From Actibacterium sp. 188UL27-1 (GTDB taxonomy: Bacteria > Pseudomonadota > Alphaproteobacteria > Rhodobacterales > Rhodobacteraceae): a stretch of 64,000 nt of DNA. Below the pieces are notes generated by a model. That model had not been told where the DNA came from and did not search any database. It saw nothing but the letters and a program-made list of their open reading frames with translations. Positions 9,512 through 27,358 of the stretch are shown here, piece by piece. Position numbers and translations under genes: made by a program. The stretch is taken from positions 186,001 to 250,000 of the forward strand of contig NZ_JAFEUL010000003.1 of assembly GCF_016901225.1 (NCBI RefSeq). Reading direction: 5' to 3'. The stretch's first letter is position 1; every line of letters starts with the position of its first letter.

Positions 9512-9541
9512 TCACGGCCATACAAGTATCGCAAACAGGCT

Positions 9542-11866: not shown

Positions 11867-12294
11867 GACTTCTGCCCGTCCTTGCCATGATCATCGCCCC
11901 CGCCGCCGCCATGGCCGAGGGTGTGAAAATCGAAGACGCGATGGTGCCGCTGGCCCCCCCTGGGATGATGGCCCACGCCGCCTATCGGAAGCTGACCAAT
12001 GCAGGCGATGCGACGTGCCAACTGATCGGTGTCAAAGCAGAAGGGTACAAGACGGCCCATTTGCACCAAAGCGCCAACGCGGGCGGTGTCGCCACGATAT
12101 CAGTCGTTGACCAGATAGAGATTGCGCCGGGCCAAAGCGTGGCGTTCGAACATGGTGGCCTGCACATCATGCTGATGCACCCTGTGGACGTCGCAAAGGA
12201 AAGCGACATCGTCAACCTGACCCTCCTATTTGCGGATGGTGAAGCGCTGTCGACCCCGGCCAAAGTCATGCACCTGCACCATGATGAGTCATAG
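11863..12294 (+). CDS. PCu(A)C periplasmic copper chaperone
   Basis: This 143-residue protein has a signal peptide (about residues 1-18) and the DUF461/PCuAC cupredoxin-like fold. Metal residues visible are H66 and H68 in AHLHQS and H101-x-M103 in GLHIMLM. The middle Met of the classic H(x10)M(x21)HxM motif is not apparent, so copper affinity may differ. The C-terminus has another His-rich stretch (MHLHHDES). It works with SCO proteins to deliver Cu(I) to oxidase sites. The start is a GTG at 11863 overlapping the SCO stop. The gene is intact. Confidence 0.85.
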   Translation: MRLLPVLAMIIAPAAAMAEGVKIEDAMVPLAPPGMMAHAAYRKLTNAGDATCQLIGVKAEGYKTAHLHQSANAGGVATISVVDQIEIAPGQSVAFEHGGLHIMLMHPVDVAKESDIVNLTLLFADGEALSTPAKVMHLHHDES

Positions 12295-12415
12295 GGCGAT
12301 CCTTGCTTTGGTTGCGGCACTTGTGGCCGCCCCGGTTCAGGCCGATTTCGATGCGGACGCCTTTCCACCCTATGAACCGCCCTGGCGGATTACCTCTCTG
12401 CCCAGCCCCGGTCAT
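12281..12415 (+). pseudogene. Small exported protein, only the N-terminus left
   Basis: The ATG codons at 12281 and 12284 overlap the PCuAC stop and begin MSHRAILALVAALVAAPVQA, a good signal peptide cut after QA, followed by DFDADAFPPYEPP. Then sense is lost, and the sequence runs directly into the Crp/Fnr gene in another frame. The frame happens to stay open to 12982, but the part after about residue 33 is a shadow of the regulator. The original may have been a small periplasmic protein of the copper or cytochrome type; its identity cannot be told. Confidence 0.45.
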
Positions 12416-12434
12416 GATCCATCCGCGCGACGAA

Positions 12435-12982
12435 ATGCAAGACGCGCCCAGCGCCATCTTCCTGTCGGAATATCTGCTGGACATCAACGACGGTTCGGGA
12501 TTTCTAAGCCCTCTGTCCGCGCAGGATCAAAAGACCGTTCGGAAACTTGGGACCCGCTGCACCTTTTCCAAAGGGTCGGGGATCTTCCCGCAAGGGGATT
12601 CCCATACCGGCGTCTGGATCATCGAAGCCGGTCGCGTCCGAACCTATTGTACCGGGCCAACAGGGCGCGAGATCACGCTGGCTTATTGGAGCCCGGGCCA
12701 TTTCATCGGCGGGCCAGAGGTGTTTGGCCACGGGCACCATGTCTGGTCAGCGGATGCGCTGGAAGACTGCGAGATGCTGTTTTGTCCGGCATGAGCATGC
12801 AAAAGCTGGTGCGCGAGGTCCTGGATGCCGCCATCGCGGTAATCCAGGGACCGATCGCCTCAATCGTCGGGGCGACCCGGCAATGGGTTACCCAATCCCT
12901 AGACAAGCTCAAGGGGGAGGGCGTGTTAGAGATCACTCGGACCGAGATCATCGTCTATCAGATCGACGCCCTGCAGGAATAA
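12435..12982 (+). pseudogene. Crp/Fnr family regulator, frameshifted with internal deletion
   Basis: The likely start at 12435 reads MQDAPSAIFLSEYLLDINDG, then a cyclic-nucleotide-type sensor domain (GIFPQGDSHTGVWIIEAGRVR, GREITLAYWSPGHFIGGPEV). Near 12785 a frameshift occurs (the frame ends in TGA), and the other frame reads KLVREVLDAAIAVIQG. It then jumps straight to IASIVGATRQWVTQSLDKL, the recognition helix of the helix-turn-helix. About 70-80 residues of the dimer helix and DNA-binding domain are deleted. In related bacteria this type of regulator sits beside the genes it controls, so it was probably the cluster's own regulator. Confidence 0.85.
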
Positions 12983-13009
12983 CTCGGGGCCACCCGGCTT
13001 TCGCTACTC

Positions 13010-13933
13010 TCACCCATCCGGCATGGAGAATGGGCGCGGATCGGGAAGGGGGGACTGCCCGCCGTAATGGGGCAGGTCCTGGCGGCGCAGTTTCAGCGCG
13101 CCGTCCCGTTCCAGGGTCAAACAGTGATTGGCGATCTGCTCCAGCGTGGCAAACCAAACCTCGCCCGTCTCCTGCATCTCTTGGATCATCTGTTCGATCC
13201 GTTGCCACCGGGACAAACGCCCCGAGACGAAGGGATGCCAGACCCCGATCCAAAGCCCACCACCGGCCCTGCGCATCGCGTTGAATTCGGCCATAAAGAC
13301 CTCCATCGCGCGGTCGGGGGGCAACAACTGAAACATGTAATCCAGGTCAATGGAATGCACATAGGGTGGCCAGTCATCGGTCGCCCAACTGACGGGCAGT
13401 TCAACCAACTCGCCCTTTGGCGTCGCCAGCATATAGGGCACGTCATCCCCCATCAGCGAGCTGTCATAGAGGAACCCCGCCTCCGCCAGTAGGTCGGGTG
13501 TCTGTGCCGACATATTGTAAAGGGGGGAGCGGTTGCCACGGGGCCGTTTGCCCGTGAACGTCTCGATCACTTCAATCGAGCGCTGCATCCAGTATCGCTC
13601 CTCCTCTGGCGGTAGGGCATTGGGCGCTTCGTGAATGTAGCCGTGAAAGCCCACCTCGTGCCCGCCCTCAACGATCGCCTCCACCGCCTTGGGATGCTGT
13701 TCGATACACCAGGCAGGGATGAAAAAGGTCTGGGTGAGGCCAAACCGTTTGTAGCCGTTCAGGATCCGCGGGATTGCCACATCGGGACCGTAGCGAAGCA
13801 TTGAAATCGTGGACAGGTAGTTCACACCGGCCTTGCCCTTTTCGATATGGATCAGGCTGTCGGCATCCATGTCAAAGGTGATCGCAACAGCGACCTTTGC
13901 CCCGCCGGGCCAGGGGATTGGATTTTGTATCAT
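13010..13933 (-). CDS. Polysaccharide deacetylase-fold hydrolase (PuuE/cyclic-imidase-like)
   Basis: This 307-residue protein has a NodB-homology fold: metal-site region AITFDMDADS (D21, D23, D25), GHEVGFHGYIHEAPN with the two metal His, NRSPLYN, and the C-terminal GGLWIGVWHPFV motif. The HGYIHE type and the lack of a signal peptide point to the cytoplasmic branch that includes PuuE allantoinase and cyclic imide hydrolases, not cell-wall deacetylases. It would open a cyclic amide or remove an N-acyl group. It is the last gene of the minus-strand catabolic operon, 10 bases after an SDR gene, which supports a role with small N-heterocycles. The substrate is inferred only. Confidence 0.75.
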   Translation of the reverse strand: MIQNPIPWPGGAKVAVAITFDMDADSLIHIEKGKAGVNYLSTISMLRYGPDVAIPRILNGYKRFGLTQTFFIPAWCIEQHPKAVEAIVEGGHEVGFHGYIHEAPNALPPEEERYWMQRSIEVIETFTGKRPRGNRSPLYNMSAQTPDLLAEAGFLYDSSLMGDDVPYMLATPKGELVELPVSWATDDWPPYVHSIDLDYMFQLLPPDRAMEVFMAEFNAMRRAGGGLWIGVWHPFVSGRLSRWQRIEQMIQEMQETGEVWFATLEQIANHCLTLERDGALKLRRQDLPHYGGQSPLPDPRPFSMPDG

Positions 13934-13943
13934 GGGATCCTCG

Positions 13944-14654
13944 CTATAGCATCACCGCCCCACCCGAGGGGCAGAGCGTCTGCCCGGTCATGAAGCTTGC
14001 GCCCGGCCCGGCCAGGAACAGGGCGGTGGCGGCGATTTCATCGGGTGTTCCGATCCGCCCCATGGGGTTCTGGGTCTCAAGCGCCAGGGCCTCGGCAGAC
14101 ATCGTCTCGGCCGACAGCATCCGCGTATCCGTCGGGCCTGGCGCGATGGCGTTGACCAAAATGTCGGGCGCAAATTCGTGGGCCAAGGCGCGGGTCAGGC
14201 CGATCACCCCGGCTTTCGAGGCGCAATAGGCCGCAAAGTTGGCCCGCCCCAGATGGGCAAGCTCCGACGCGATCAGGATCAACCGCCCCTGTCCCCGCGG
14301 GGACAGGGCTTTTAGCGCCCCTTGGGCCACCAGGAACGAACCGCGCAGATTGACCGCGATCTGGCGGTCGAACTCCGCGACTGACATGTCCAGCGTGGGA
14401 CATTCGATCAGGATCCCCGCGGCATTCACCACGCAATCGAGCGGGCCCGCCACATCGAACATCGCCGCGACAGAGGTTTCGTCACTGACATCGACCTGGA
14501 TCGCTTGGCCGTTGGTCGCACTAGCCGTGTCGCTGGCATCATCCAGATCGGCGGAAATGACCGTGGCACCCGCCTCGGCCAGGGCGCATGCCGTCGCAGC
14601 GCCGATTCCGCGAGCTGCCCCGGTGACCAAGGCGCGTTGCCCTGCCAGCATCAT
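13944..14654 (-). CDS. SDR family oxidoreductase
   Basis: This is a classical 236-residue short-chain dehydrogenase: cofactor motif TGAARGIGAA (residues about 11-20), NAAG, catalytic Ser in LIASELAH, and Tyr-x3-Lys in YCASK. It ends with the usual TGQTLCPSGG loop. The acidic Asp after beta-2 (ISADLDD) suggests NAD+ rather than NADP+. The start overlaps the stop of the neighbouring SDR gene (ATGA), so the two are co-translated. The substrate is unknown; in this operon it likely oxidises or reduces a carbonyl product of the hydrolytic steps. An 18-base palindrome lies inside the gene at 14289-14306 and is translated as part of ALSPRGQGR. Confidence 0.85.
   Translation of the reverse strand: MMLAGQRALVTGAARGIGAATACALAEAGATVISADLDDASDTASATNGQAIQVDVSDETSVAAMFDVAGPLDCVVNAAGILIECPTLDMSVAEFDRQIAVNLRGSFLVAQGALKALSPRGQGRLILIASELAHLGRANFAAYCASKAGVIGLTRALAHEFAPDILVNAIAPGPTDTRMLSAETMSAEALALETQNPMGRIGTPDEIAATALFLAGPGASFMTGQTLCPSGGAVML
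14289..14306. repeat. 18-bp perfect palindrome, copy 2
   Basis: CTGTCCCCGCGGGGACAG is self-complementary and identical to the copy at 9591-9608. It lies inside the SDR coding region, in frame. Confidence 0.8.
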
Positions 14655-15424
14655 TGCATCAACTCCCCACGGTCGACCGTAAAGGCCTGGCCGGTGATGT
14701 TGCGCGCGGCATCCGAGGCCAGGAACAGATACATGTCGGCCATATCAGTGGGCTCCATCAGGCCAGGTAACGCCTGCGCGCCGATGATTTCGTCGAGCAA
14801 CGCCGCCTCGTCTCGACCCGTCCGGGCCGACATCGCAGCGAGGGACCGCATGGATGCCTCGGTCCGCACCCAACCGGGGCAGACCGCGTTGACGGAGATC
14901 CCCCGAGGCGCAAGTTCCTGCGCCAAGCTACGGGTCAGGCCGATCACCGCATGTTTGGACGCGCAATAGGCCGAAAACTCTGCCACCGCCGTCTTGCCCC
15001 ACATCGATGCCGTGTTCACGATCCGTCCACCATCCCGCATCTTGTGTAGTAGGGCGCGGATCACACTAAATGTGCCAATAATATTAACCTCTGTGATCTG
15101 GCGAAAGGTCGCGTCGATCTCCGGGGACGGATCATCGATGGGCGTGATCCGTTCGAGCCCCGCATTGTTGACCAGCACGTCCAAGGGCCCGCAGGCTGCC
15201 GCCATCGCCGCCACCTGATCAAGGTCGGCGATATCGCAGGTGACACCTGTGACCGCGCGCCCGAATTCGTCTGCCCAACGTGCTGCAACCTCGGCCACGT
15301 CAGGTTCCAGCCCGATGATGGTCAGGTCTGCGCCGGCCGCCAGAAACCCACGGGCGACACCGGCCCCCAGGCCCATATTGCCGCCGGTGATCACGACATG
15401 CTGGCCGGTGAAATCATGGGGCAT
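14651..15424 (-). CDS. SDR family oxidoreductase
   Basis: This 257-residue classical SDR is started at the ATG 15424 ([11 protein letters not shown]), because residues upstream of it in the open frame overlap the ATPase gene and look non-native. Motifs are [13 protein letters not shown] for the cofactor, VNNAGLE, catalytic Ser in VNTASMWGK, and YCASK. The region after beta-2 reads IIGLEPD, compatible with NAD+. The gene overlaps the upstream ATPase stop by 11 bases and the downstream SDR start by 4, so it belongs to the same transcript. Two different SDRs side by side suggest successive oxidations or opposite stereochemistry in one pathway. Confidence 0.85.
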
Positions 15425-16217
15425 GGGCGGCCTCCGCTTCGGCGCGTATGTATTCGGCCCGGATGATCTGTTGCACCTCGCGGCGCAAGCTGAGGAAGGC
15501 AGGCGTGTCGCGCAACGCCTGATCGCGATCATCCGGCCCCAACTGTTCGGTCACGTTGATGTCTTCCAACACGCGCGCCGGACGGGCGGAAAAGACGACC
15601 AGGCGGTGGGCCAGCAAGATCGCCTCTTCGACGTCATGGGTGACAAAGATCGTGGTTTTGCCCGCTGTCCGGTTGATCTCGAGCAGCTTGTTTTGCAGAT
15701 GTTCCCGGGTCAGGGCGTCGAGCGCGCCAAAGGGTTCGTCCATCAGCAGGATGTCAGGATTGGCGGCCAGGGTGCGGGCGATGGCCACGCGCTGGCGCAT
15801 CCCGCCGGAGATCTGGTTGGTATAGCTGTCGGCGAAACCCTTAAGCCCAACCAGTTCGATGAAGCGGTTGACAGTATCCTCCCGGTCGCTGGCGCTGAGG
15901 TCAGCGCGATATTTCAGACCCAGCCGGATGTTGCCCGCCACAGTGAGCCAGGGAAATGCGGCATAGGATTGAAAGACCATGCCGCGGCGGCGATCCGGGC
16001 CGCCCAGTCGGGCGCCATCTAGGGTGATCGTTCCGGTCGTTGGCGTCTCCAACCCGCCCACCATGCGCATGACGGTGGTTTTCCCGCAGCCGGAGGGGCC
16101 GAGGAAGGTCACGATCTGCCCGCGATCCATGGCCAGGGTCAGGGGGGCGACGGCCTGCACTTTGCGCCCATCGGTGCCGTATGTTTTGGAGATATTGGTG
16201 AGGTCGAGATATGCCAT
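15414..16217 (-). CDS. ABC transporter ATP-binding protein, SsuB/TauB type
   Basis: This 267-residue ATPase has an intact Walker A (GPSGCGKTT, near residue 41), Q-loop [11 protein letters not shown], signature [13 protein letters not shown], Walker [14 protein letters not shown] and H-loop FVTHDVEEA. It is a canonical energiser of nitrate/sulfonate/taurine/pyrimidine-type importers. It works with the permease encoded 4 bases upstream and the solute-binding protein before that. All catalytic residues are present, unlike the broken ATPase at 10.5 kb, which is a separate copy. The substrate is inferred from the operon to be a nitrogen compound. Confidence 0.92.
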
Positions 16218-16220
16218 GCC

Positions 16221-16997
16221 CTACCGCTCCAAATACCGAAAGCGGCGCCTATGGGCCCAGCGAAACGCCTGGTCGGTCAGCAATCCGATGATCCCGATGG
16301 CCACGATCCCCGCCATGACCTCGGGCGTTTTGACGAACCGCCGCAAGGACCAGATCACGTGGCCGATACCGGAGGAGGCCGCCACGATCTCGGCGATGAT
16401 CAGGTAGGTCCAGCACCAGCCCAGGGTGATGCGCAGGTTATCAACGATATTGGGCAGGGCCGCTGGGAAGACGATGTCGCGGATCACCTGCCACTGGCTG
16501 GCCCCCAGGGTGAAACCGGATTCCACGTATTCGGCGGGCACACGTTTCGTGTCGTCCGAGATCAGCAAGACAAGTTGAAAGAACGTCCCCATCCACAAAA
16601 CCGCGATCTTGGATGCCTCTCCCACGCCGAACCAGATGATCAGCAGCGGTACCATGGCGGGCACGGGCAAGTAGCGGATGAAATCCACGAAAGGCTCCAC
16701 AAAGGCGCCGACTGCGCGGTAGCACGACATCAGCAGGCCCAGCGGCACCGCAACGATGACCGACAGTAGAAAGGCCAGCCAGACCCGCCCGACCGAAATG
16801 GCGATGTCGCCTGCGAAGTTGCGTTCGGTGAACAGCCGCCCGAACGCCTCCACCACGGCGAAGGGGGTCGGCAGGAACTGCTGTTTCACCCAACCCGACA
16901 CCGATGCGACATGCCAAAGGCCCAGGAACAGCAACAGCCCCGCCAAGCCAAGGGCAAGCTCGGTCCGGCGCGGCAGGGAGGTGCGAAACCCAAACAC
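16221..16997 (-). CDS. ABC transporter permease, SsuC/TauC type
   Basis: This 258-residue membrane protein has about six transmembrane segments, from LALGLAGLLLFLGLWHVA at the N-terminus to a terminal basic stretch (HRRRFRYLER). The conserved cytoplasmic EAA-like loop that contacts the ATPase is in the region GFTLGASQWQVIRDIVFPA. FIRYLPVPAMVPLLIIWFG corresponds to the family's RPIPxxAxxPL block. It is intact and spaced 4 bases from the ATPase gene and 9 from the solute-binding protein gene. Confidence 0.9.
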   Translation of the reverse strand: MFGFRTSLPRRTELALGLAGLLLFLGLWHVASVSGWVKQQFLPTPFAVVEAFGRLFTERNFAGDIAISVGRVWLAFLLSVIVAVPLGLLMSCYRAVGAFVEPFVDFIRYLPVPAMVPLLIIWFGVGEASKIAVLWMGTFFQLVLLISDDTKRVPAEYVESGFTLGASQWQVIRDIVFPAALPNIVDNLRITLGWCWTYLIIAEIVAASSGIGHVIWSLRRFVKTPEVMAGIVAIGIIGLLTDQAFRWAHRRRFRYLER

Positions 16998-17006
16998 CGG
17001 TTTAGC

Positions 17007-18020
17007 TCAGCGGGTCTTGCCCTCGAACAAATCCGGCAGCAGGCTGCCGTCGATATAGGGCGCATAGTCAAGCGGCCCGTCCTGCAGATCGAGCGACAGG
17101 TTGATTTTGTTGAAGTCGTCGAACACCGTCCGCAATTTGCCGTCGCCAGAGGCGGGCATGTAGTCCAGCGTCTCCTCATAGGTGGTGTATTTGACGCCCG
17201 CCAAGGCCTCTTTCATCTCTTCCGGGGGCACGTCGAATTCTGGCGCGGACAGCGCGATAAAGGCGTCTGGATCCTCAACATAGTCGTCAATCGCCCGGTA
17301 GATGCCCCGGAGGAATTTGGCGTATTTCTCTCGATTGGCCTGATAATCATCGGTGCGGACCAGGATGATATCGGTGATCAGCCCCTCGTAATCTGCCGAT
17401 GACAGCAGCACCTTTGACCCCTCGCGGGAGGTGTTCTTGACAATCTGGCTCAGCATCGGTTCCCAAGTGGCGACGGCGGCAATGCTGTCATCCTCAAAGA
17501 CCGCGATAGAATCGTCTGTGTTGATCAGTTTGATATCCAGATCCGCCACTGATTTGCCGATCTCGCTGAGCGCAAACTGGGTCAGGACCGTGCCGGGGTG
17601 GTTGATTTCCCCGGCGAAGGTCTTGCCCACCAGATCCTCCACCGTCTCAATTCCGGGGCCCGCCACAACGCCATCGGCGCCGACCGAGATGTCGATGGTC
17701 CCGATGATCGTGCCCGTCGTCTCCGCCGTGCGGGGCCGTGCCATGCTTTCGCCGATGGTGCGCATGGTGCAATCGACCGCGCCCGTTTCCAGCGCAGGCA
17801 GCACATTCGCGCGGTCATTGTCAAAGGCCCAAGTCACGGTCAGCTCTTCCTCGGCGAAATAGCCGTTCTTATCGGCGACAAAGACGGGCGCGAAACCGAA
17901 CCAGAACGGAAAGACGCAGTTGATCGTATCCGCGGCCCGCGCCGTGCCCGCGGTGAGCGTCGCCAGTGCGGCAATCGCTGCTGCAACACCTGTCAGTTTG
18001 CGTGAAATCGGTCGTGTCAT
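17007..18020 (-). CDS. ABC transporter solute-binding protein, NMT1/SsuA type
   Basis: This 337-residue exported protein has a signal peptide with an Ala-rich core (residues about 8-29, cut at ARA-ADT). The mature protein opens with INCVFPFWFGFAPVFVADKNGYF, the usual start of NMT1/THI5-like binding domains for nitrate, sulfonates, riboflavin or pyrimidine precursors. It then carries LPALETGAVDCTMRTIGE and LVGKTFAGEINHPG. It delivers substrate to the permease and ATPase encoded just downstream. A gap of about 150 bases separates it from the ureohydrolase gene before it, so an internal promoter at 18021-18168 is possible. Confidence 0.88.
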   Translation of the reverse strand: MTRPISRKLTGVAAAIAALATLTAGTARAADTINCVFPFWFGFAPVFVADKNGYFAEEELTVTWAFDNDRANVLPALETGAVDCTMRTIGESMARPRTAETTGTIIGTIDISVGADGVVAGPGIETVEDLVGKTFAGEINHPGTVLTQFALSEIGKSVADLDIKLINTDDSIAVFEDDSIAAVATWEPMLSQIVKNTSREGSKVLLSSADYEGLITDIILVRTDDYQANREKYAKFLRGIYRAIDDYVEDPDAFIALSAPEFDVPPEEMKEALAGVKYTTYEETLDYMPASGDGKLRTVFDDFNKINLSLDLQDGPLDYAPYIDGSLLPDLFEGKTR

Positions 18021-18168
18021 GATGTTACCCCCTATTTACCCCGGGCTTTAGAGTATGGGGGATGGCGTGAACTGATGAGGTGACACGCAAAGGGTTGCGC
18101 AGGGATTGGGCGTTCTGCTGTTTTTCCTGGCGGATTGGTCCGGTTTGCCCGGTTTCTGGGCGCAAGTT

Positions 18169-19122
18169 TTACGTTTTTGACCAACTTTCGGCGAGCAGGC
18201 ACAGGATCTCGTACCCCAAGGCGGCACCCGCGAGGGAGGTCACATAGCCTGTGTCAAAGGGCGGCGAAACCTCGACCAAATCCGCGCCCACATAGCTGAG
18301 GTTGCGCAGGCCACGCAGCAGAACCTGCGCCTGATGTGTCGTCATGCCACCGATCTCTGGCGTGCCAGTGCCGGGCGCATAGACGGGGTCGAGGCTGTCG
18401 ATGTCAAAGCTCAGATAGACCGGCCGGTCGCCGACCAAAGCGCGGGCTTCATCTGCAATCGCGGCGGGGCCGGTTGCGTGCAGTTCTTCGCAAAAGACCA
18501 CGCGCATGCCGTGGGCCTGTGAATAGTCCCATCCTTCGGCAGAGTTCTGGGTGCCGCGGATGCCGATCTGAATAGTGGCTTTGGGGTCGATCAAGCCTTC
18601 CTCGACCGCGCGGCGAAAGGGGGCGCCATGGTTGAACTTGGACCCCTGGAAGCTGTCCCACGTATCGGTATGGGCATCGACATGGATCAGTGCCACTGGG
18701 CCGTCCGCAGCCACTGCCCGCAACAGGGGCAGCGACACGGAGTGGTCCCCGCCAAACCCAAGGGGTAGGATACCGGCATGAACCAGTTTGGTGGCAAATG
18801 TTGCGATCTCACCATGGCTCGCCTCAATATCGAACATGCTGGTGAAGGCCACGTCGCCCATGTCGCGCACCTGGCACCGGGCAAATGGATCGATCCGCGT
18901 GGCGTGGTTGATCGACCGGATGAGCGAAGACTGGTTGCGGATCTCTCGTGGGCCGTGGCGCGCACCCGGGCGGTTGGTCAGCGCGCCGTCATAGGGAATG
19001 CCGAACAGGCCGATATCAACCCCGTCCAGCCGATCAGCTAAAGGCGCGCGCAGCAGCGTCGCCACCTCGGCAAAGCGGGGCGCCCAGCGGTCAGGTGTGG
19101 CGGGGGGGCGAAAGGTCGTCAT
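18169..19122 (-). CDS. Ureohydrolase (agmatinase/guanidinobutyrase family)
   Basis: This 317-residue enzyme of the arginase/agmatinase superfamily has every dimetal ligand in place: GGDH127, D149-A-H151-x-D153 and D240-I-D242 (SFDIDSLDP). These enzymes hydrolyse a guanidino group to urea plus an amine. The DAHTDTW and FNHGAPFRRA context resembles guanidinobutyrase and guanidinopropionase more than arginase. The gene starts inside the stop of a second ureohydrolase gene (4-base overlap). With a creatininase upstream, the target may be creatine, guanidinoacetate or another carboxylated guanidine. The metal is predicted to be Mn or Ni; the exact substrate is open. Confidence 0.85.
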   Translation of the reverse strand: MTTFRPPATPDRWAPRFAEVATLLRAPLADRLDGVDIGLFGIPYDGALTNRPGARHGPREIRNQSSLIRSINHATRIDPFARCQVRDMGDVAFTSMFDIEASHGEIATFATKLVHAGILPLGFGGDHSVSLPLLRAVAADGPVALIHVDAHTDTWDSFQGSKFNHGAPFRRAVEEGLIDPKATIQIGIRGTQNSAEGWDYSQAHGMRVVFCEELHATGPAAIADEARALVGDRPVYLSFDIDSLDPVYAPGTGTPEIGGMTTHQAQVLLRGLRNLSYVGADLVEVSPPFDTGYVTSLAGAALGYEILCLLAESWSKT

Positions 19123-20072
19123 GGCGCGCCCTTTGCGTGGAGAATGCGGCCGATTGTGTTCAGCAACAATTGCGCCGCTAGGATCGAGGTACTGCCGGTC
19201 GGGTCGTAATCCGGCGCGACCTCCACCAGGTCGATGCCGACGATGGGCTGGCGTTTGGCGAGGATCGCGATCAGTTCCAGCACTTCGTAATAGAGAAATC
19301 CGCCATGGCTGGGCGTGCCGGTACCGGGCGCGATGGACGGGTCAAATCCATCGATATCGATGGTCAGGTATAGTTTGGTATCGGCGGGCACGCGGTCTGC
19401 CACGGCCTCTACCCCCAGCTTGCGGATCTGGCGAACCGACAAGATGTCGGAGCCGCGGGCGCGGGCATCGTCGTAGCCTTCCTTGGCGGTGGAGGAGACA
19501 TTGCGGATACCAAACTGGCTGATCCCGGTGACATGGTCCTGTTCCGCCGCGCGCCGCATCGGGTTGCCATGGCCGTAGCGGACGCCGTGGCGTTCATCGA
19601 CGAAATCCAGATGGGCGTCGATCTGCACGATATGGATCGGCCCGGCATCGGCAAAGGCGTTGATACAAGGGATATTGACCGAGTGATCGCCGCCCAGCAC
19701 GACGGGCAAGGCACCGGCGGCCAGGATCTTGCGCACGCCATATTCGATGTTGCGGTGGCTGCCGTCGGTATCGGTATGGATGATATCGGCATCGCCCAGG
19801 TCCACGATCCGGGCGCCTTCCAGGTAGGTCACGTCATCCTCATGGTCATAGGCCCCGGCATGGCCGAACGCGAAGAGGGTCGAGGCTTCGCGGATCCCGC
19901 GCGGCCCAAACCGCGCGCCAGACCGCCACTGGGTCCCGAAATCGAAAGGCGCGCCCAGGATGGCGACATCGGCATCGATGGCGTCCCAATCCTCGACATA
20001 TGGATATTTGCCGAAGGTCGCGATGCCGACGAAGGGCAGGTTGAGGCGGCCCGAGGCGTAACCGTGGCTCAT
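19119..20072 (-). CDS. Ureohydrolase, second paralogue
   Basis: This 317-residue paralogue of the neighbouring ureohydrolase is clearly diverged from it. Metal ligands are intact: GGDH130, D152-A-H154-x-D156 and D239-I-D241. The substrate side of the second motif reads DAHLDFVDERHG in place of DAHTDTWDSFQG, and the N-terminus carries a longer extension (FGKYPYVEDWDAID). Such differences in the loop after DAHxD set substrate choice in the family, so the two enzymes probably act on different guanidines or form a heteromer. The two genes are coupled by overlap. It is likely cytoplasmic and hexameric, as relatives are. Confidence 0.85.
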   Translation of the reverse strand: MSHGYASGRLNLPFVGIATFGKYPYVEDWDAIDADVAILGAPFDFGTQWRSGARFGPRGIREASTLFAFGHAGAYDHEDDVTYLEGARIVDLGDADIIHTDTDGSHRNIEYGVRKILAAGALPVVLGGDHSVNIPCINAFADAGPIHIVQIDAHLDFVDERHGVRYGHGNPMRRAAEQDHVTGISQFGIRNVSSTAKEGYDDARARGSDILSVRQIRKLGVEAVADRVPADTKLYLTIDIDGFDPSIAPGTGTPSHGGFLYYEVLELIAILAKRQPIVGIDLVEVAPDYDPTGSTSILAAQLLLNTIGRILHAKGAP

Positions 20073-20109
20073 GGAAAGTTTCCTCGTGTAAAGTTCCCGT
20101 TGTCTAGCA

Positions 20110-20889
20110 TCACACGGTCATATTCTGAAACGCTTCGGTAATCTGGCGGGCAAGCTCTGGGACCAAGGTTTCAACAACGGCCTTGCCCTTTTCCGCTGTC
20201 GCACCGGCAGCGGATGACAGCGCGCCGGAATGGCTGACCGAGGCCGGATCGAACGGATAGACATCGTATAGCGGGAAATCTGCGGGCGGGTGGTCGGGGA
20301 TCAGATCGCGGCGCACCAGATCAGGGGCAAGGTGCAGCATGACGGAGGTTTCCATGACGGCGGCATGCTCCAATTCCCACGAGATCAAGCCATCGGGGAA
20401 GAGCACCTTTTCAAGCGCGGCGTTGATGGAGATCCAGTAGCCCATCTTGACGATCCTGACATCGGTGATCCCTTCGGATTTTAGCGCGCGTAACGAAAGG
20501 TCCGCCGCTTCGGTCAGGAACATCTGGTTTTCCATATGCCCGTCGAACAGCACGATTTTTGTCAGGCCGTGGCGGGCGAAATCGCAGATCAGGTCGCGCA
20601 CCATCAGCGTGTAGGTCGCGCCATCCAGGGAGGCGCAGCCTGGCATGTGGTTGCCGCCGCCGCTTTTGGGCTGGGATTTGTAGCCATAGGACAGGGTTGG
20701 TGCGACGAGGGCGTCGATCTGCGCTGCCACCCGTTCGGCCAGTCGTTGCGGGATCATGGCATCGGTGCCAAGCGGCAGGTGCGGCCCGTGCTGTTCGAAC
20801 GCGCCGGTGGGCAGGATCACCACCGGTGGCCCGGCTTTGACCCGCGCGTCAAGCTCGGGAGAGGTCATTTCATCGAGGCGCACGGTCAT
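20110..20889 (-). CDS. Creatininase (creatinine amidohydrolase)
   Basis: This 259-residue protein matches Pseudomonas creatininase closely as I recall that sequence. The metal ligands E32, H34 and D43 lie in GAFEQHGPHLPLGTD, with H118 and E120 in FDGHMENQMF. The loop YGYKSQPKSGGGNHMPG, and W152, W171 and H175, fall where the enzyme's gating Trp and catalytic His lie. Creatininase opens creatinine to creatine (Zn/Mn dependent). Other family members, such as MftE and ArfB, lack the SQPKSGGGNH loop, so a creatinine-type cyclic substrate is likely. The stop overlaps nothing, while the start overlaps the amidohydrolase stop (ATGA), showing coupling. Confidence 0.85.
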   Translation of the reverse strand: MTVRLDEMTSPELDARVKAGPPVVILPTGAFEQHGPHLPLGTDAMIPQRLAERVAAQIDALVAPTLSYGYKSQPKSGGGNHMPGCASLDGATYTLMVRDLICDFARHGLTKIVLFDGHMENQMFLTEAADLSLRALKSEGITDVRIVKMGYWISINAALEKVLFPDGLISWELEHAAVMETSVMLHLAPDLVRRDLIPDHPPADFPLYDVYPFDPASVSHSGALSSAAGATAEKGKAVVETLVPELARQITEAFQNMTV

Positions 20890-22397
20890 TGGAGCCAGGC
20901 CGGTTCCTGGCCCAGGCGGTGCAGGCCGATATCGCAGGCGTTGGCCTTTTTGTGGGCCTGCCAGAATGCAGCCTCAAACGCCTGGTTCATGGCTTCGGTC
21001 TTGGTGTGTTGGGCGAGGAAGGCGGGCATCTCTTCGCGAAGTTCGGCTAAGAGCGCGGCTTCATCGACATGGAGGCATGTGCCGTCTTGTGCCATGATCT
21101 GCCCGCCGACGATGGCATGGGTGATTGACGATCCCGTCTCACAATAGACCAGATGGTTTGCAATGTTGTTGCGCGGTGTGAAGGGCACGGTGGCCAGGTC
21201 GATGACCAGCATATCGGCCTTATGCCCGGCCTCCAGCGTGCCGGTTTTTGGCAGGCAGGCGCTTTTGGCACCGCCGGACGTTGCCGCGCGTAAAATTTCG
21301 GGGGCCGACAGCCAGTAGGCCGTATCGGGCGTTTGAACGTTGTGGATCAGGCCGGCAGCATGCATCACCGCGAACATGCGCGTGGTGTCGGAGGTGGAGA
21401 CGCCGTCGCTGCCCAGTGCGACATTCACCCCGGCGTCAAGCAGGCGCCGGACAGGGGCGACGCCCGCGCCGAGTTTCTGGTTCGAGATGACGTTATGAGC
21501 GATGGAGCAGCGCGCATCGCCCATCAGCTCGATATCCGGATCGGTCACCCAGATCGAATGGGCAATCGTGGTGCGTTCGCGCAGGAGGCCGTGGCGGTGC
21601 ATATAGGCGATCAGGGTTTCACCGTAGAATTCCGGCCCGGTGACCGCCTGCATCTTGGTTTCGAGGATGTGGGTGTGGAAGGGGGCATCGTGCGCCTCAG
21701 CCAACTCCATCGCGGCTTGCATCAGGTCGACGGTGCAGCGCTGAGGCGCGGAGGGGGCCACCATGAAGTTCAACCGCCCGGATCGGCCATGGTGTCGGGT
21801 GAACGCCTCCTTGCAATGGGCGAGCCAGGCCTTTGCATCACCCGTGCCCAGGGCATCGGCCTGGGCTGCCAGGTCAGGCCCCACAAAGTCGCGGACAAAG
21901 GGGATCGTGTCGAGGAATGGTCGATCCACGATATGACCAGAGATCGTGGCGCGCAGGCCGACATCGTCATAGGCCTGGAACACGGCGTCCAGTTGCTCCG
22001 GCGTTTGATGCGGGCTTTCATAGACATCATCGGTGACGCAGGTGGTGCCGGATTTGAGGGACTCGATCGCGCAGAGGGCAGTGCGGAGATAGACCAGCCG
22101 GGGCGACAGGACCTGCGCCCCTAGGATCGGATAGGCGTAGAGCATCCACACTTCGAGCGGCATGTTATCGTAGCGGCCCTTATAGAGCGCCTCGGGCGAA
22201 TGCATGTGGGCGTTGACGAGGCCGGGCATGACCAGCTTGCCCCGCCCGTCGATGGTTTGATCGGCTTGGGACAGGTCCAGGTCAGGGCCGATGGCGATGA
22301 TCCGGTCCCCTTGGATCAGGAGGTCAGCGGTGAATGGTTTGGCCCCATGATCGGCGTCGAGGACCAGGATTTCGGCCCCGGTGATGGCGATGGACAT
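20886..22397 (-). CDS. Amidohydrolase family deaminase (cytosine deaminase/AtzB-TrzN group)
   Basis: This 503-residue metal hydrolase has the mononuclear subtype pattern: H64-x-H66 in GLVNAHMHS, HTHILET in the middle, AHSIWVT, and the Asp in ALGSDGVST. N- and C-terminal strands form the usual beta-sandwich. The group includes guanine, 8-oxoguanine, creatinine and triazine deaminases or dechlorinases, plus SAH/MTA deaminase. A long C-terminal helix-rich tail (about 60 residues) is present. It is sited between a polyamine-type transporter and creatininase, so it probably deaminates the imported cyclic amidine, for example creatinine to N-methylhydantoin. That substrate is inference. Confidence 0.8.
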   Translation of the reverse strand: MSIAITGAEILVLDADHGAKPFTADLLIQGDRIIAIGPDLDLSQADQTIDGRGKLVMPGLVNAHMHSPEALYKGRYDNMPLEVWMLYAYPILGAQVLSPRLVYLRTALCAIESLKSGTTCVTDDVYESPHQTPEQLDAVFQAYDDVGLRATISGHIVDRPFLDTIPFVRDFVGPDLAAQADALGTGDAKAWLAHCKEAFTRHHGRSGRLNFMVAPSAPQRCTVDLMQAAMELAEAHDAPFHTHILETKMQAVTGPEFYGETLIAYMHRHGLLRERTTIAHSIWVTDPDIELMGDARCSIAHNVISNQKLGAGVAPVRRLLDAGVNVALGSDGVSTSDTTRMFAVMHAAGLIHNVQTPDTAYWLSAPEILRAATSGGAKSACLPKTGTLEAGHKADMLVIDLATVPFTPRNNIANHLVYCETGSSITHAIVGGQIMAQDGTCLHVDEAALLAELREEMPAFLAQHTKTEAMNQAFEAAFWQAHKKANACDIGLHRLGQEPAWLQ

Positions 22398-22400
22398 GGT

Positions 22401-23474
22401 CTATCCCTCCTTCAGGACATAGGCGGCCTCCGCCGGCCAATGGGCATGGACCGTATCGCCGGGGATGAGGGTGATGCGATCAAGCTCTGACTGCTGCAAC
22501 TGCACTTTCATCTGTGTCTGGTCGGCCAGCAGCAGGTAGAGCGTGACGAAGGAGCCTGTGAACTCTTCCGTCAGGAAGGTTGCTGTGACCGCATTCTCAG
22601 CGCCCGTTTCGGTGGCGGATAGGGTGACTGCGTTGGACGGGATCAGGACAGTGGCCAGTTGGCCGGGTTGCGGGGGATGCCCGGCTTTGGCGGTAAAGGT
22701 GCCGACAGCCGTTTCGACCCTGTGATCTGGGCCCCCTGTCCCCGTTATTATGGTGCTGGCGCCCACGAATTCGGCCACGAACCGGTTGGCGGGGGCGCGG
22801 TAAACCTCCCGCGCGGACCCGATCTGTTGCAGGTGCCCTTGGTTGAGGATGGCGACACGGTCGGCCATGGCGAAGGCTTCGGACTGGCTGTGGGTGACAT
22901 AGAGGAACGTGATGCCCAATTCGCCATGCAGGCGTTTGAGCTCTGCCTGCATCTGCAGCCGCAGATGGGCGTCGAGCGCGGACAGCGGTTCATCCAACAG
23001 CAGGATTTCGGGCTCTAACGCCAGGGCCCGGGCCAGGGCCACCCGCTGGCGTTGCCCGCCCGAAAGCTGATTGACCCGGCGGTCGGCCATGGCGGCGATG
23101 TCGAGCCGTTCGAGCCATTCACCGGCCTTGCGCCTGCGATCCGGCAGTGCATGGCGGCGTTTCTGTTTGAGGCCAAATTCCACATTCTGGCGGACGGTCA
23201 TGAACGGGAACAGCGCGTAGGATTGCCATACCATGGGCATATCCCGCTCCCACGGGGGCAGATTGGTGATGTCGCGGTCCCAGTGGCGGATCTGGCCCGC
23301 GCTGGGCGCCTCTAGCCCCGCGATCATCCGCAGGGTCGTGGATTTGCCGCAGCCAGACGGGCCCATCATGGCCAGGAACTCCCCCTTTTCCACCGTGAGG
23401 GTGGTCGGGTGTAGGGCCGTGTCGGAGCCGAACTGCTTTTCCAGCGCGTGGAGCGTAAGGATTGGTTTCGCCAT
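22401..23474 (-). CDS. ABC transporter ATP-binding protein, PotA type
   Basis: This 357-residue ATPase has Walker A GPSGCGKSTTL, Q-loop WQSYALFPF, signature LSGGQRQRVALARAL, Walker B LLLDEPLSALDA and H-loop VTHSQSEA. A C-terminal TOBE domain of about 110 residues follows, which fits the spermidine/putrescine/iron/glycine-betaine (PotA) family. All catalytic residues are intact. It forms one complex with the two permeases and the solute-binding protein encoded upstream; the ATG overlaps the permease stop by one base. It energises import of a cationic or zwitterionic nitrogen compound. Confidence 0.92.
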   Translation of the reverse strand: MAKPILTLHALEKQFGSDTALHPTTLTVEKGEFLAMMGPSGCGKSTTLRMIAGLEAPSAGQIRHWDRDITNLPPWERDMPMVWQSYALFPFMTVRQNVEFGLKQKRRHALPDRRRKAGEWLERLDIAAMADRRVNQLSGGQRQRVALARALALEPEILLLDEPLSALDAHLRLQMQAELKRLHGELGITFLYVTHSQSEAFAMADRVAILNQGHLQQIGSAREVYRAPANRFVAEFVGASTIITGTGGPDHRVETAVGTFTAKAGHPPQPGQLATVLIPSNAVTLSATETGAENAVTATFLTEEFTGSFVTLYLLLADQTQMKVQLQQSELDRITLIPGDTVHAHWPAEAAYVLKEG

Positions 23475-24247
23475 TAGCGGGCCTGCCGGGGTGTGATCAC
23501 CTGCGCGATGGCGACGAGGGTGATTGAGATGAAGAAAACGAGTGATCCAATGGCGTTGATCCGTGGGCTGACCTGACCCTGGAGGAGAGCGAGGATGCGG
23601 ACGGGCAGCGTTTCCTCTAGGCCCGAGACGAACCAGGCGACCATGAATTCATCGAAGGAGACAGCAGCCGTGATGGCGAGCCCCGCCAGGATCGCGGGCA
23701 TGCACCATGGGATGGTGATGGACCACATCGTGGCCCAACGGCTGGCGCCGAGGTTCCAGGCGGCGGGTTCGATATCAGGCGACATATCGGCCAGGCGCAT
23801 CCGGATCAGGGCCATGGCAAATGGCGCGCAAATCACGACATGGCCTGCGATGACGGCTGAGAGTGTGCCCACAAGGTTCACCATGGAGAAGAAGGACAGC
23901 ATGCCGAGGCCCAGGATCAGGACTGGCACAGTGGGCGGCAAGGCGGCGATGGCCAGGTAAGGCAGCTTGCCCCGGAAATTGTAGCGGTAATCGGTATAGG
24001 CCGTGGCGAACCCGATGAACGTGGCCAGGACCGAGACGATGGCCGAGACGCGCAAGCTGCGCCAGAAGCCTGCGCGCACGCTGTCATCCTGGAAGATCGC
24101 GACGTACCATTTCAGGGAAAAGCCGCCCCAGGGCAGGCTCGGGAAGCGGTCGGCGTTGAAGGAAAAGACGACGAGCGACGCGATGGGCGTGAGGATGAAG
24201 AGGAACACTAGGACCGTCCAGGCGGCTTGCCAGCGCGCGGCGGTCAT
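23474..24247 (-). CDS. ABC transporter permease, PotC type
   Basis: The start is at 24247 (MTAARWQAAW), where the ATG overlaps the preceding permease stop by 4 bases; sequence upstream in the same frame is not native. The 257-residue protein has six predicted membrane spans. The EAA-type loop AAWNLGASRWATMWSITIPWCMPA contacts the ATPase. PotC-like features are ISxxFDEFMVAWF late in the protein and FGLATAYT-type motifs early. It is the second membrane subunit of the PotABCD-like importer. Confidence 0.9.
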   Translation of the reverse strand: MTAARWQAAWTVLVFLFILTPIASLVVFSFNADRFPSLPWGGFSLKWYVAIFQDDSVRAGFWRSLRVSAIVSVLATFIGFATAYTDYRYNFRGKLPYLAIAALPPTVPVLILGLGMLSFFSMVNLVGTLSAVIAGHVVICAPFAMALIRMRLADMSPDIEPAAWNLGASRWATMWSITIPWCMPAILAGLAITAAVSFDEFMVAWFVSGLEETLPVRILALLQGQVSPRINAIGSLVFFISITLVAIAQVITPRQAR

Positions 24248-25113
24248 TTCTTGGCCCCTGGGCGTCCGTAGGCGGCAAAGAGCGCGGCGAAAAGGACGGT
24301 GATTAGGGTGAACACCATCGTGACGGCCACGACCGAGGCGCGGGGCCAGTGATTGCCGGATTTCGTCTGATCCACGATCAGGATCGACAGGGTGGGTGGG
24401 GTGCCGCCGCCTAGATAGGCTGGGCTGACATAGTCGCCGAAGGTCAGAATGAAGGCGAAGGTCGCGGCGAGGATCAGGCCAATTTTGGCCGCGGGGATCG
24501 TGACGCTGACTGTCGTGCGCAGGGGGCCGCAACCCAGATTATGCGCCGCGCCGATCAGCGACCGGTCAATGTTGGACAGGGCGAAATATTGGATCATCAC
24601 GGTTAGTGGCAGGCATAGGGTCAGGTAGCCGATTGTGGCCCCGAAGGCATTGTTGAGCATTTCAAACGGGCCGAGGCCGAGCCAGCCAAACATAACATTC
24701 AGGACGCCTTCGGTGGACAGGATGATCTTCCACGAATAGATGCGCACCAGATAGCTGGTGAAGAACGGCGTCACGAGGAGGAAGATCGCGATGCGCCGTG
24801 CTCGGGGGGAGGCGCGGAAGGCCAGGTAATGGGCAGCTGGAAAGGCGATGACGCTAGCGAGGACTGCGACGAGGGCGGCCAGTTCGAACGTATAGAGGTA
24901 GCCCGTCCAGAAGTAGTCGCGGGTGAACATCCGCTCCCAGTTGCGGGCCGTGAAATCAGGGGTCAGGCGATAGCTTTTGACCGCCCAGAAGGTCATCGCG
25001 ACCAACAGGCCGAGCGGGACGAGGAAGAACGCTGTCTGCCAGATAAGCGCCGGGGCCCCCCAGAAGGTGGCGAACCCGTCAAAGCGGCGGCGCGGTTTTG
25101 ATGATGGTGCCAT
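24244..25113 (-). CDS. ABC transporter permease, PotB type
   Basis: The start is taken at 25113 (MAPSSKPRRRF) because the upstream extension overlaps the solute-binding gene and lacks hydrophobic or conserved sequence. The 289-residue protein has a basic N-tail, then about six membrane segments. The EAA-like loop AAHNLGCGPLRTTVSVTIPAA is present, as is the FGDYVSPAYLGG stretch characteristic of PotB/PotH permeases. It is intact and coupled to the PotC gene. It is the first membrane subunit of the importer. Confidence 0.9.
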   Translation of the reverse strand: MAPSSKPRRRFDGFATFWGAPALIWQTAFFLVPLGLLVAMTFWAVKSYRLTPDFTARNWERMFTRDYFWTGYLYTFELAALVAVLASVIAFPAAHYLAFRASPRARRIAIFLLVTPFFTSYLVRIYSWKIILSTEGVLNVMFGWLGLGPFEMLNNAFGATIGYLTLCLPLTVMIQYFALSNIDRSLIGAAHNLGCGPLRTTVSVTIPAAKIGLILAATFAFILTFGDYVSPAYLGGGTPPTLSILIVDQTKSGNHWPRASVVAVTMVFTLITVLFAALFAAYGRPGAKK

Positions 25114-25154
25114 GGTGGTGCGGCGCGCCCTAAGTGCCGGGCGCGCCCTTGTCC

Positions 25155-26288
25155 TTAGGCCTTGAAATCGGCCCAAACATCGGTCCAATCCTCGATCTCT
25201 TGCTGGATCGGGGTCTTGCGGATGTTGATCTTGCCCTCGGCATAATCGTCCATGACGTTGTTGTCCTCGAATGTCATGCGCAGGCGCTTTGCGTCGTCGG
25301 GCATGTTGGCGTTCAGGTGCTCCCACCCGGCCTTTGACGGGATGGACGCGTTATAGGCGGGCATGACGGCGGAGAGCGCCTGCCCCTCGGGCGAGGTCAT
25401 GTACTGGATGAACTGTTTGGCCATGTCCTGTTTGGCGGAACCTTTGCCGATGGACATGGACTCGGTCCATTGCACGCCGCCTTCCTTGGGCACCCAGCTG
25501 TCGACGGGCACGCCATCGGCGGCTAGAAGCTGTGTGATCCAGTCACCGACCCCCGGGATGATCGAGGCATCGCCGTTGGTCAGGGAGGAGAACGTATCAG
25601 CCATGGAGTAGAACCCGCTGGTCTGCGCCTTGACCTGATCCATCATGGCCACGAGCGCGGCAAATTCATCTTCGTCGATGTCGTAGGGGTGGCCGTCATT
25701 GCCCGCACCGCAGGACAGACAGCCCATGGAGGGCAGATACCAATCGAAATAGCCGACCTTCCCGGCAACTTTCGGGTCAAGCAGGATCTGGTAGGTCTCG
25801 ACCTCCTCGCGGGTCAGAATATCGGTGCGGTAGGAGACGCCAAGGAAGCCGTAGCGGATGATCACGGAATAGAGCTCATCCTCCAACCAATGGCCGGGGA
25901 ATTTCTGGAATTCCGGGAAGAAATCCTCAAACGGATAATCTTCGGCCGTCATGGGGTCGATGAAGCCGCCATCGCGCAGTTGGATCACGAATTCGGCGTC
26001 CGACAGGATCACGTCATAGGTGCCCACCGGCGATTGGTTGACCAGGGCCACCATGTTGTCGCCACCGACATATTCCTTGGCGACGACCTTTATCCCCGTT
26101 GCTTCCTCGAACAGGCCAATCACGGCCGGGTCATTATGGCCGGGCCAGCAGAGCAGGTTCAGGGTCTTGTCGCTGTCCTGTGCGCGAATGACGGAAGGCG
26201 CGGCAAGGGCAGCGGCCCCGGCGCTAAGGCCGCGGAGCACGGTGCGCCGTTTGATAAGTCCGGTGGACGGCGTGATGAGTTTCGGCAT
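25155..26288 (-). CDS. ABC transporter solute-binding protein, PotD type
   Basis: The ATG at 26288 has GTGGGGA just upstream and was chosen over a GTG at 26300. The 377-residue protein has a twin-arginine type export signal (IKRRTVLRGLSAGAAALAAP, cut near IRA-QDS). The mature part reads LNLLCWPGHNDPAVIGLFEEATGIKV, the PotD/PotF start. Trp and acidic residues of the polyamine-type site (CWPG, SDAEFV) are recognisable, but ligand specificity cannot be read. It carries an uncommon Cys pair, CLSCG. It is the first intact gene of the long minus-strand operon. Confidence 0.88.
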   Translation of the reverse strand: MPKLITPSTGLIKRRTVLRGLSAGAAALAAPSVIRAQDSDKTLNLLCWPGHNDPAVIGLFEEATGIKVVAKEYVGGDNMVALVNQSPVGTYDVILSDAEFVIQLRDGGFIDPMTAEDYPFEDFFPEFQKFPGHWLEDELYSVIIRYGFLGVSYRTDILTREEVETYQILLDPKVAGKVGYFDWYLPSMGCLSCGAGNDGHPYDIDEDEFAALVAMMDQVKAQTSGFYSMADTFSSLTNGDASIIPGVGDWITQLLAADGVPVDSWVPKEGGVQWTESMSIGKGSAKQDMAKQFIQYMTSPEGQALSAVMPAYNASIPSKAGWEHLNANMPDDAKRLRMTFEDNNVMDDYAEGKINIRKTPIQQEIEDWTDVWADFKA

Positions 26289-26322
26289 GTTTATCCCCAC
26301 TTATTGACCATGTCACAGCTTC

Positions 26323-26625
26323 TCAGAAGAACGTAAAATCAGGTTGCTTGGTCCCAGGGCCCAATACCGCGCGGCCCTTGCTGGCCGGAACCTGTTCGGC
26401 AGGCAGCGTGCAGTCGTGCGGGTCGCTGCGTACCACTTTTGTGAAACGTTTTGGGTCAAAGCCAATCGCTTCAACCGCGCCATGGGAAGAAGTGGCGGTG
26501 TGCCCCGCCACGACATGACGGATCCCGTCACAGACGGCCGTGGCAAAAGGTGCGGCACTGGCCGCAAGCATTTCGTGTCGTGAGATGCCAATCGCACGCT
26601 GCATGAATATGTCATGCTTCGACAT
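26323..26625 (-). pseudogene. Nucleoside deaminase fragment
   Basis: The start at 26625 (MSKHDIFMQRAIGISR) is that of the guanine/cytidine deaminase-like family. It continues with APFATAVCDGIRHVVAGH and TSSHGAVEAI, where family members have the zinc motif PTSHGEVEAI; the catalytic Glu is Ala. The later PCxxC zinc motif is absent, and after VEAIGF the sequence becomes unrelated (DPKRFTKVVRSDPHD). The frame is open for 100 codons, but the enzyme would be truncated and lack both catalysis and part of its zinc site. It lies at the head of the catabolic operon, on the same strand, and may once have belonged to it. Confidence 0.6.
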
Positions 26626-27148
26626 CCGTCCGTCCCCTTGGTAGCGGAGCAGCCTCCCCAATGCGGTTGCTCCACCCCCCACAGCGCTTTCCAGGGCGCG
26701 GATCTGTCAAGATTTCGACGGCTACACCCAGAGATGGCGCTATGTATGCCTATTTTTTTGGCGATTTTGCTTAGCTTTGGGTGATCATGTGGCGCGGTTG
26801 GATCTGCCTTCCGGTGACGGAGATACCCCATTGCGGTGGGGTTGTTCATCTGGCCCGCCGACCAGGCCATCTTTGCCCTGGCCGGTCTTTGGAGAATGAT
26901 GCCCTGCAACGAACCGCGACGGGTTCATCCCGGGAACGGAAACCAGAGTTGCGATCCCGCAAACCATTTGTAACCCACCCTGGTGCAGCGAGTGACCAAC
27001 GCTCTGCCATATCGTTGGACCACCGCCTGGACCGAGCCTCGACTACAGGTCGAACGGCTAGCCGCACAAGCTCTCATCATGTCTGCCGAATGATGTCACT
27101 TAGGTCTGTCGCAGCGAGAGGGGTATCGCTTTTTGCAAAAAGCAACTG
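26626..27148. other. Gap between catabolic operon and tRNA-Thr
   Basis: No supportable gene in about 520 bases. Overlapping frames on both strands give low-complexity peptides without recognisable motifs. A perfect inverted repeat GCTTTTT/AAAAAGC lies at 27128-27143 just after the tRNA-Thr 3' end (minus strand) and could help terminate it. Promoter elements of the catabolic operon would be expected near 26640-26780 but are not obvious. Confidence 0.4.
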
Positions 27149-27224
27149 TGGTGCCGGTGATAGGACTCGAACCTACGACCCCATCATTACGAATGACGTG
27201 CTCTACCAGCTGAGCTACACCGGC
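27149..27224 (-). tRNA. tRNA-Thr (anticodon CGT)
   Basis: A 76-base cloverleaf on the minus strand. The acceptor GCCGGTG pairs with CACCGGC, the discriminator A is followed by an encoded CCA, the D-arm is GCTCAGCTGGTAGAGC, the anticodon loop TTCGTAA gives CGT (reads ACG), and the T-loop is GGTTCGAGTCC. Confidence 0.97.
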
Positions 27225-27333
27225 ATCCCTCTGTTGCAGCTTGGTTGGCGGATCCAATCGCACTGTAACTGTCATTCAATACGAATGACGCAGTAGAGCA
27301 GCAAGGCCGACGCAAGACTGGCGGATCGGATAC

Positions 27334-27354: not shown

Positions 27355-27358
27355 AGAC

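Follow-up and report, generated by a model that had tools for sequence, protein, structure and literature searches.

A conserved operon in Actibacterium sp. 188UL27-1 joining a creatininase-family enzyme to two ureohydrolases, and its possible role in nitrogen salvage from cyclic guanidines

Introduction

In the classic creatinine route, creatininase opens the ring to creatine, from which creatinase releases urea, and sarcosine oxidase completes the degradation. Roseobacter litoralis grows on creatinine, yet the enzyme for the first step could not be identified there (PMC3141670). Guanidino groups are also cleaved by ureohydrolases, among them AGMAT, a relative of GbuA and GpuA that hydrolyses guanidino acids but is inactive on creatine and guanidinoacetate (PMC9772407), and metformin hydrolase, the beta subunit of which is degenerate (PMC11399263). 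Both types of enzyme meet in the 14-gene locus described here, in which a creatininase-family gene (CRN) adjoins two ureohydrolase genes (UreB and UreA). The locus lies in a window of 64,000 nt, i.e., the whole stretch of DNA that was analysed (contig NZ_JAFEUL010000003.1 of Actibacterium sp. 188UL27-1, positions 186,001 to 250,000). An earlier note on this DNA, referred to here as the original prediction, had proposed an operon for creatinine and guanidine catabolism that works without creatinase.

The locus is real and conserved, and it is mis-annotated rather than categorically new. The explanation favored here, at close to even confidence, is that it forms one operon fusing two conserved modules, which would salvage nitrogen from an imported ring compound carrying a guanidine (or amidino or ureido) group. 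This builds on the gene content, the catalytic motifs, the recurrence of the modules in other genomes, and the repeated co-occurrence of a ring opener and an enzyme that cleaves guanidino or ureido groups. The literature search yielded no paper naming both creatininase and ureohydrolase, and leads on riboflavin/lumichrome, homarine, and creatininase with short-chain dehydrogenases (SDRs) gave nothing relevant. Below, coordinates are positions in the window unless they follow a locus or contig label, L-numbers are locus labels, G000 is the source genome, and C-numbers are its contigs.

Results

Layout of the operon

Fourteen genes are packed tightly on the minus strand, from 26288 to 13010, according to gene calls and family profile matches, so the single minus-strand run of the original prediction stands with every named gene in place:

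25155 to 26288, minus strand: PotD-like substrate-binding protein of importer 1 (profile matches)
24244 to 25113, minus strand: PotB-like permease (start trimmed)
23474 to 24247, minus strand: PotC-like permease (start trimmed)
22401 to 23474, minus strand: PotA-like ATPase
20886 to 22397, minus strand: AMH, TRZ/ATZ-type amidohydrolase, probably an aminohydrolase (PF01979; HxH, HxHxxE, and GSD motifs)
20110 to 20889, minus strand: CRN, creatininase-family cyclic amidohydrolase (TIGR04448, 330 bits)
19119 to 20072, minus strand: UreB, ureohydrolase in a clade of its own, sister to 1wog, with all metal ligands
18169 to 19122, minus strand: UreA, ureohydrolase nearest 3-guanidinopropionase GpuA
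17007 to 18020, minus strand: NitT/TauT-type (NMT1/THI5-like) substrate-binding protein of importer 2
16221 to 16997, minus strand: NitT/TauT-type permease
15414 to 16217, minus strand: NitT/TauT-type ATPase
14651 to 15424, minus strand: SDR2, short-chain dehydrogenase (start trimmed)
13944 to 14654, minus strand: SDR1, short-chain dehydrogenase (TGAARGIG, S-Y-K)
13010 to 13933, minus strand: DAC, polysaccharide-deacetylase-fold hydrolase, distantly PuuE-like (PF01522; TFDMD, HxxxH)

After start trimming, 12 of the 13 junctions measure 41 bp or less, most of them being overlaps or near-contacts, and the only larger gap (148 bp) separates UreA from the NitT binding protein. All catalytic motifs examined in the operon proteins are intact. 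AMH carries the HxH, HxHxxE, and Asp motifs of the TRZ/ATZ aminohydrolase family, and its best matches belong to the N-ethylammeline chlorohydrolase/8-oxoguanine deaminase group; as all of them fall below the cut-off and no equivalog cut-off is reached, the profiles do not fix its substrate. The PuuE-like ring hydrolase of the original prediction holds at the level of the fold family, to which DAC belongs, and is otherwise a distant likeness, since DAC scores 88 bits against the allantoinase model TIGR03212 (cut-off 425); DAC is a possible candidate for a cyclic amide hydrolase. The parallel N-methylhydantoin-type branch that had been suggested for the deaminase and the ring hydrolase found no support, as neither a hydantoinase nor an N-carbamoylsarcosine amidase was identified in the analysis.

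The NitT-type binding protein occurs in 2 of 391 Rhodobacterales genomes. Just upstream of the operon lies a tRNA-Thr gene (27149-27224), which was the only hit in an Rfam scan of positions 12000-28000; a search for sigma-54 sites gave matches at chance level only. A second NitT-type importer set adjoins the operon (8141-11300 and 12230-12982) and appears frame-shifted, with its ATPase spread over two frames, a scrambled permease, and a split gene for a Crp-like regulator, reflecting either decay or sequencing error.

Recurrence of the two modules

A genome scan with CRN as query yielded 78 CRN loci. A near-identical 14-gene cluster is present at L058, with blocks 1 and 2 fused as in the window, and both blocks occur rearranged at L038 and L079, which, together with the window, makes four Rhodobacterales genomes that hold both halves in differing arrangements. 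Block 1 consists of Pot-AMH-CRN, often with a cytosine-deaminase-like gene, and stands alone in Rhizobiales (Aureimonas, Ancylobacter, Neorhizobium, and others). Block 2 consists of UreB(-UreA)-SDR2-SDR1-DAC, usually with a NitT importer and a LysR gene; it is found without CRN in other Rhodobacterales (L188 and L189, which also lack AMH and Pot) and in shorter form at L199, L200, and L202. Because the L058 cluster is near-identical and the halves recur separately in other genera, the layout is not a matter of chance.

Several block 2 loci hold further genes. At L188 (7787-10224), UreA and UreB are separated by genes for an APH-type kinase and a protein like class III aminotransferases, which resemble separate halves of the PRK06148 fusion, an arrangement that may point to an amino alcohol as the product. 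At L199 (4136-9484), DapA-like, threonine-dehydratase-like, and RidA genes (identified by eye) and an amino-acid importer precede UreB-SDR2-SDR1-DAC, and at L206 (1614-5465, same contig as L200), another UreB-SDR-DAC locus, molybdenum-hydroxylase-like subunits (by eye) follow the NitT importer.

Another type of CRN locus combines CRN, a NitT importer, two SDRs, and a variable addition, namely, I) a GpuA orthologue (74-76% identity to GpuA) in Rhodospirillaceae and Dongia; II) a DDAH/ADI-like enzyme plus DUF1989 in Hyphomicrobium; and III) a fatty-acid (FA)-desaturase-like protein, in some cases with an isochorismatase-like hydrolase, in Burkholderiales. Clusters of the Hyphomicrobium type were seen at L074, L076, L080, L081, L090, L092, L095, and L109. 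In cyanobacteria, CRN adjoins a ureohydrolase at four loci, three of which are further accompanied by two AMH genes and a Pot importer; this combination is one that was assembled independently.

The pairing of ring opener and cleaving enzyme is pronounced where SDRs are present. All 23 loci with the SDR1-SDR2 pair hold CRN or DAC, and 21 of them also encode an enzyme that cleaves guanidino or ureido groups and that belongs to one of three families unrelated to one another (ureohydrolase, DDAH/ADI-like, isochorismatase-like). Such an enzyme is present at 24 of the 34 CRN loci with an SDR vs. 4 of the 44 without (Fisher p 1.6e-8), the latter four being the cyanobacterial ones. Over all CRN loci, a cleaving enzyme occurs at 28 of 78 and creatinase at 8, and the two never occur together. 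The idea of the original prediction that a creatininase-type ring opener and ureohydrolases belong to one pathway, to be followed up by a survey of co-occurrence, thus gains from the recurrence of this pairing in unrelated lineages (cyanobacteria, Rhodospirillaceae, Dongia).

These neighborhoods also bear on whether the halves share more than a promoter and a location. Two independent operons could lie side by side, with Pot-AMH-CRN serving one N-heterocycle and UreB/UreA-NitT-SDR-DAC another guanidino compound, and it fits such an arrangement that each half is found alone in other genomes and has its own importer, and that a LysR gene separates the halves at L038. It fits less well that the halves are joined in four genomes with differing arrangements, that cyanobacteria independently combined Pot, AMH, CRN, and ureohydrolase, and that in the window CRN and UreB are 37 bp apart while the UreB and UreA genes overlap. 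Taken together, two separate pathways are considered unlikely.

CRN compared with verified creatininase

CRN scores 330 bits against the creatininase model TIGR04448 (cut-off 235) and is 50% identical to the Pseudomonas putida creatininase (1J2T), of which it retains the metal ligands E34, H36, D45, H120, and E122 and the gating residues W154 and W174, confirming what had been read from the letters alone. It departs from the verified clade at four positions of the pocket (N118 to Asp, Y121 to Met, S152 to Gly, and D175 to Glu); Asn118, Tyr121, Ser152, and Asp175 are residues which we take to bind the substrate in creatininase. In a tree of 80 sequences, which leaves the deeper branching order unsettled, the P. 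putida enzyme groups with creatinase-linked actinobacterial CRNs (97/89), and the window CRN falls outside this clade. Relatives linked to FA-desaturase, DDAH, or GpuA also pass TIGR04448, two tested ones at 353-397 bits, i.e., above the window CRN; since relatives from such different neighborhoods pass, the model does not settle the substrate of CRN. Judged by sequence, pocket and tree position argue against taking creatinine for granted. Beside members of CRN-II, a conserved family without NCBIfam match was noticed (L078, 8551-9246, and L065, 10753-11490), the L078 member of which also lacks a Pfam match.

Ureohydrolases UreA and UreB

Both ureohydrolases carry the full GGDH/DAHxD/DxDxxDP set of metal ligands (PF00491). 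The nearest characterised relative of UreA is the 3-guanidinopropionase GpuA (3nip, 52% identity). UreA lies outside the GpuA clade (97/97), with Phe at the position of GpuA Tyr157 (Met161 in GbuA) and Trp at that of GpuA Asn154; Tyr157 is presumed here to have a role in GpuA. The closest solved structure to UreB is the agmatinase-like 1wog from Deinococcus, its sister in the tree at 37% identity. UreB is present at high identity in 186 of the 391 Rhodobacterales genomes, mostly without the neighbors it has in the operon, and its surroundings in 20 Rhodobacterales genomes revealed no common partner except one copy of the SDR-DAC block; from its wide distribution away from these neighbors, UreB is judged to be a general enzyme recruited into the operon. 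In one Rhodobacterales genus (seven sampled genomes, L159 and L192-L197), UreB stands tail to tail with creatinase, beside a Pot-like importer.

Neither UreA nor UreB is an orthologue of GbuA, SpeB, or GdmH, which are matched better by genes on C34 and C53. These are a further tandem pair of ureohydrolases (G000, C34, 179391-181120; L143 and L145), one SpeB-like (52%) and one GbuA-like (62%), and a GdmH-like guanidine hydrolase with 69% identity to 7esr (C53, 100486-101307; L147). With agmatinase-like, guanidinobutyrase, and guanidine hydrolase genes elsewhere, other guanidino compounds are left for UreA and UreB. Agmatine and 4-guanidinobutyrate were rejected as substrates on account of these separate genes, as was guanidine itself, given the GdmH-like enzyme and the lack of a guanidine riboswitch in the region.

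In the original prediction, one of the ureohydrolases was to hydrolyse the creatine formed by CRN in place of creatinase. The adjacency of CRN and ureohydrolase does recur, and creatinase and the alternative cleaving enzymes are never found at one CRN locus. Against this stand the creatinase that the genome encodes, the kinship of UreA with 3-guanidinopropionase together with the failure of AGMAT to hydrolyse creatine (PMC9772407), and the finding that UreB, a generic Rhodobacterales enzyme, is usually not near any CRN, all of which makes hydrolysis of creatine by UreA or UreB very improbable. Likewise, the overlap of two adjacent paralogues brings to mind a heteromer like metformin hydrolase, with one catalytically dead subunit. 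All metal ligands are present in both proteins, unlike in the degenerate beta subunit of that enzyme (PMC11399263), UreA and UreB each occur without the other at L038, L071, and L189, and two genes part them at L188. With both metal sites complete, a heteromeric tandem ureohydrolase was rejected, its chance being close to negligible.

Creatinase elsewhere in the genome

The operon and the window indeed lack creatinase, as originally stated; the genome does not. A search for creatinase and sarcosine oxidase found both outside the window. Contig C1 encodes a 401-aa creatinase (517 bits to 7yto, a creatine amidinohydrolase, and 513 to 1chm), located in a Dpp-type importer cluster without creatininase, and two complete soxA genes (sarcosine oxidase alpha) and a urease likewise lie on contigs other than that of the window. 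With these genes creatine is predicted to be degradable by textbook enzymes, and its breakdown via creatinase and sarcosine oxidase is encoded elsewhere in the genome and is probably separate from the operon. A creatinase-free creatinine pathway was rejected once this creatinase had been found.

Canonical creatinine use could then be split over the genome, with CRN producing creatine, the unlinked creatinase and sarcosine oxidase finishing the job, and the other operon genes being passengers. CRN exceeds the creatininase cut-off at 50% identity to a verified enzyme, and creatinase, soxA, and urease are at hand; the route deserves respect because R. litoralis grows on creatinine without an identified first enzyme (PMC3141670). 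However, creatinase is missing from most genomes that share the Pot-AMH-CRN block, CRN lies outside the verified clade with four changed pocket positions, and the creatinase of this genome is clustered with an importer and not with CRN. Among 42 genomes with a window-like CRN, creatinase was found in five (Roseovarius, Tabrizicola, Crenobacter, and two actinobacterial controls). A split canonical route is therefore regarded as distinctly unlikely.

Discussion

If the fused operon serves one pathway, as is favored here, the gene content is compatible with the following steps: I) the ring compound would be taken up by the importers of the operon; II) the ring would be converted to a cyclic acyl-guanidine, i.e., a creatinine-like lactam, with the two SDRs oxidising and/or AMH deaminating it; III) CRN and/or DAC would open the ring hydrolytically to a guanidino acid; IV) UreA and UreB would split the guanidino group into urea and an amine; and V) the urease encoded elsewhere in the genome would convert urea to ammonia. 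Chemically, an alcohol beside the guanidine may be oxidised to an aldehyde that closes to a cyclic hemiaminal, from which the second SDR would form the lactam for a creatininase-type enzyme to open and a ureohydrolase to complete. A three-carbon chain would in this way yield 3-guanidinopropionate, on which GpuA acts, and it is GpuA that accompanies CRN in Rhodospirillaceae. We infer a common compound for the whole gene set, as well as its class and the order of the steps. Streptidine-like guanidino-cyclitols (with the creatininase-family IolN as an analogy) and oxidised guanine products may also be considered as candidate substrates.

A broader proposal, put forward tentatively, is that the window represents a widespread and undescribed route for cyclic guanidines, in which two SDRs or a deaminase would generate the lactam, a creatininase-family or PuuE-like enzyme would open it, and any of several unrelated enzymes (ureohydrolase, DDAH-like, isochorismatase-like) would perform the cleavage of the guanidino or ureido group, a task never left to a creatinase encoded at that locus. 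Two versions of this route would be fused in the window.

Several points weigh against a single shared pathway. Two modules in one operon could be adjacent without sharing a pathway, UreB usually stands alone in Rhodobacterales, and no guanidine riboswitch was found on searching positions 12000-28000. The loci were mostly found with CRN as bait, so its presence is not independent, and the co-occurrence counts include related genomes, which are not independent events, and use thresholds chosen by the authors. Moreover, the front ends vary among relatives (FA-desaturase-like protein, Rieske oxygenase, molybdenum (Mo)-hydroxylase, amino-acid importer with a threonine-dehydratase-like gene, APH-type kinase with class III aminotransferase), so substrates may differ; the upstream compound probably varies.

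Annotated as creatininase and agmatinase, such genes suggest creatinine and polyamine metabolism. In these lineages, creatininase-annotated genes mostly belong to creatinase-free genomes, where they have ureohydrolases, DDAH-like enzymes, SDRs, or deaminases as neighbors. Should these CRNs open other cyclic guanidines, alphaproteobacteria, Burkholderiales, and cyanobacteria would be using an overlooked class of nitrogen compounds, and many annotations would need changing.

Compared with known systems, CRN shares with the P. putida creatininase the fold family, the metal ligands, both gating Trp residues, and half of its residues, and differs in its pocket and in being linked to a deaminase and a Pot importer instead of creatinase. 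DAC shares with the allantoinase PuuE the polysaccharide-deacetylase-like family, at a score far below the PuuE cut-off. UreA has all ligands and the N-terminal TNRxGARHGP motif in common with GpuA, from which clade and the Tyr157 and Asn154 replacements set it apart, and UreB has a His in the catalytic region that 1wog lacks. The adjacent UreB-UreA genes recall the gene pair of metformin/dimethylguanidine hydrolase, whereas here neither subunit is degenerate, no linked nickel chaperones were seen, and the sequences are distant. Finally, as in the classic creatinine route (BCCT importer, creatininase, and creatinase in the actinobacterial loci L098-L107), ring opening would be followed by cleavage of the guanidino group to urea, with ureohydrolases, SDRs, and DAC in the window cluster taking the place that creatinase has in the classic one.

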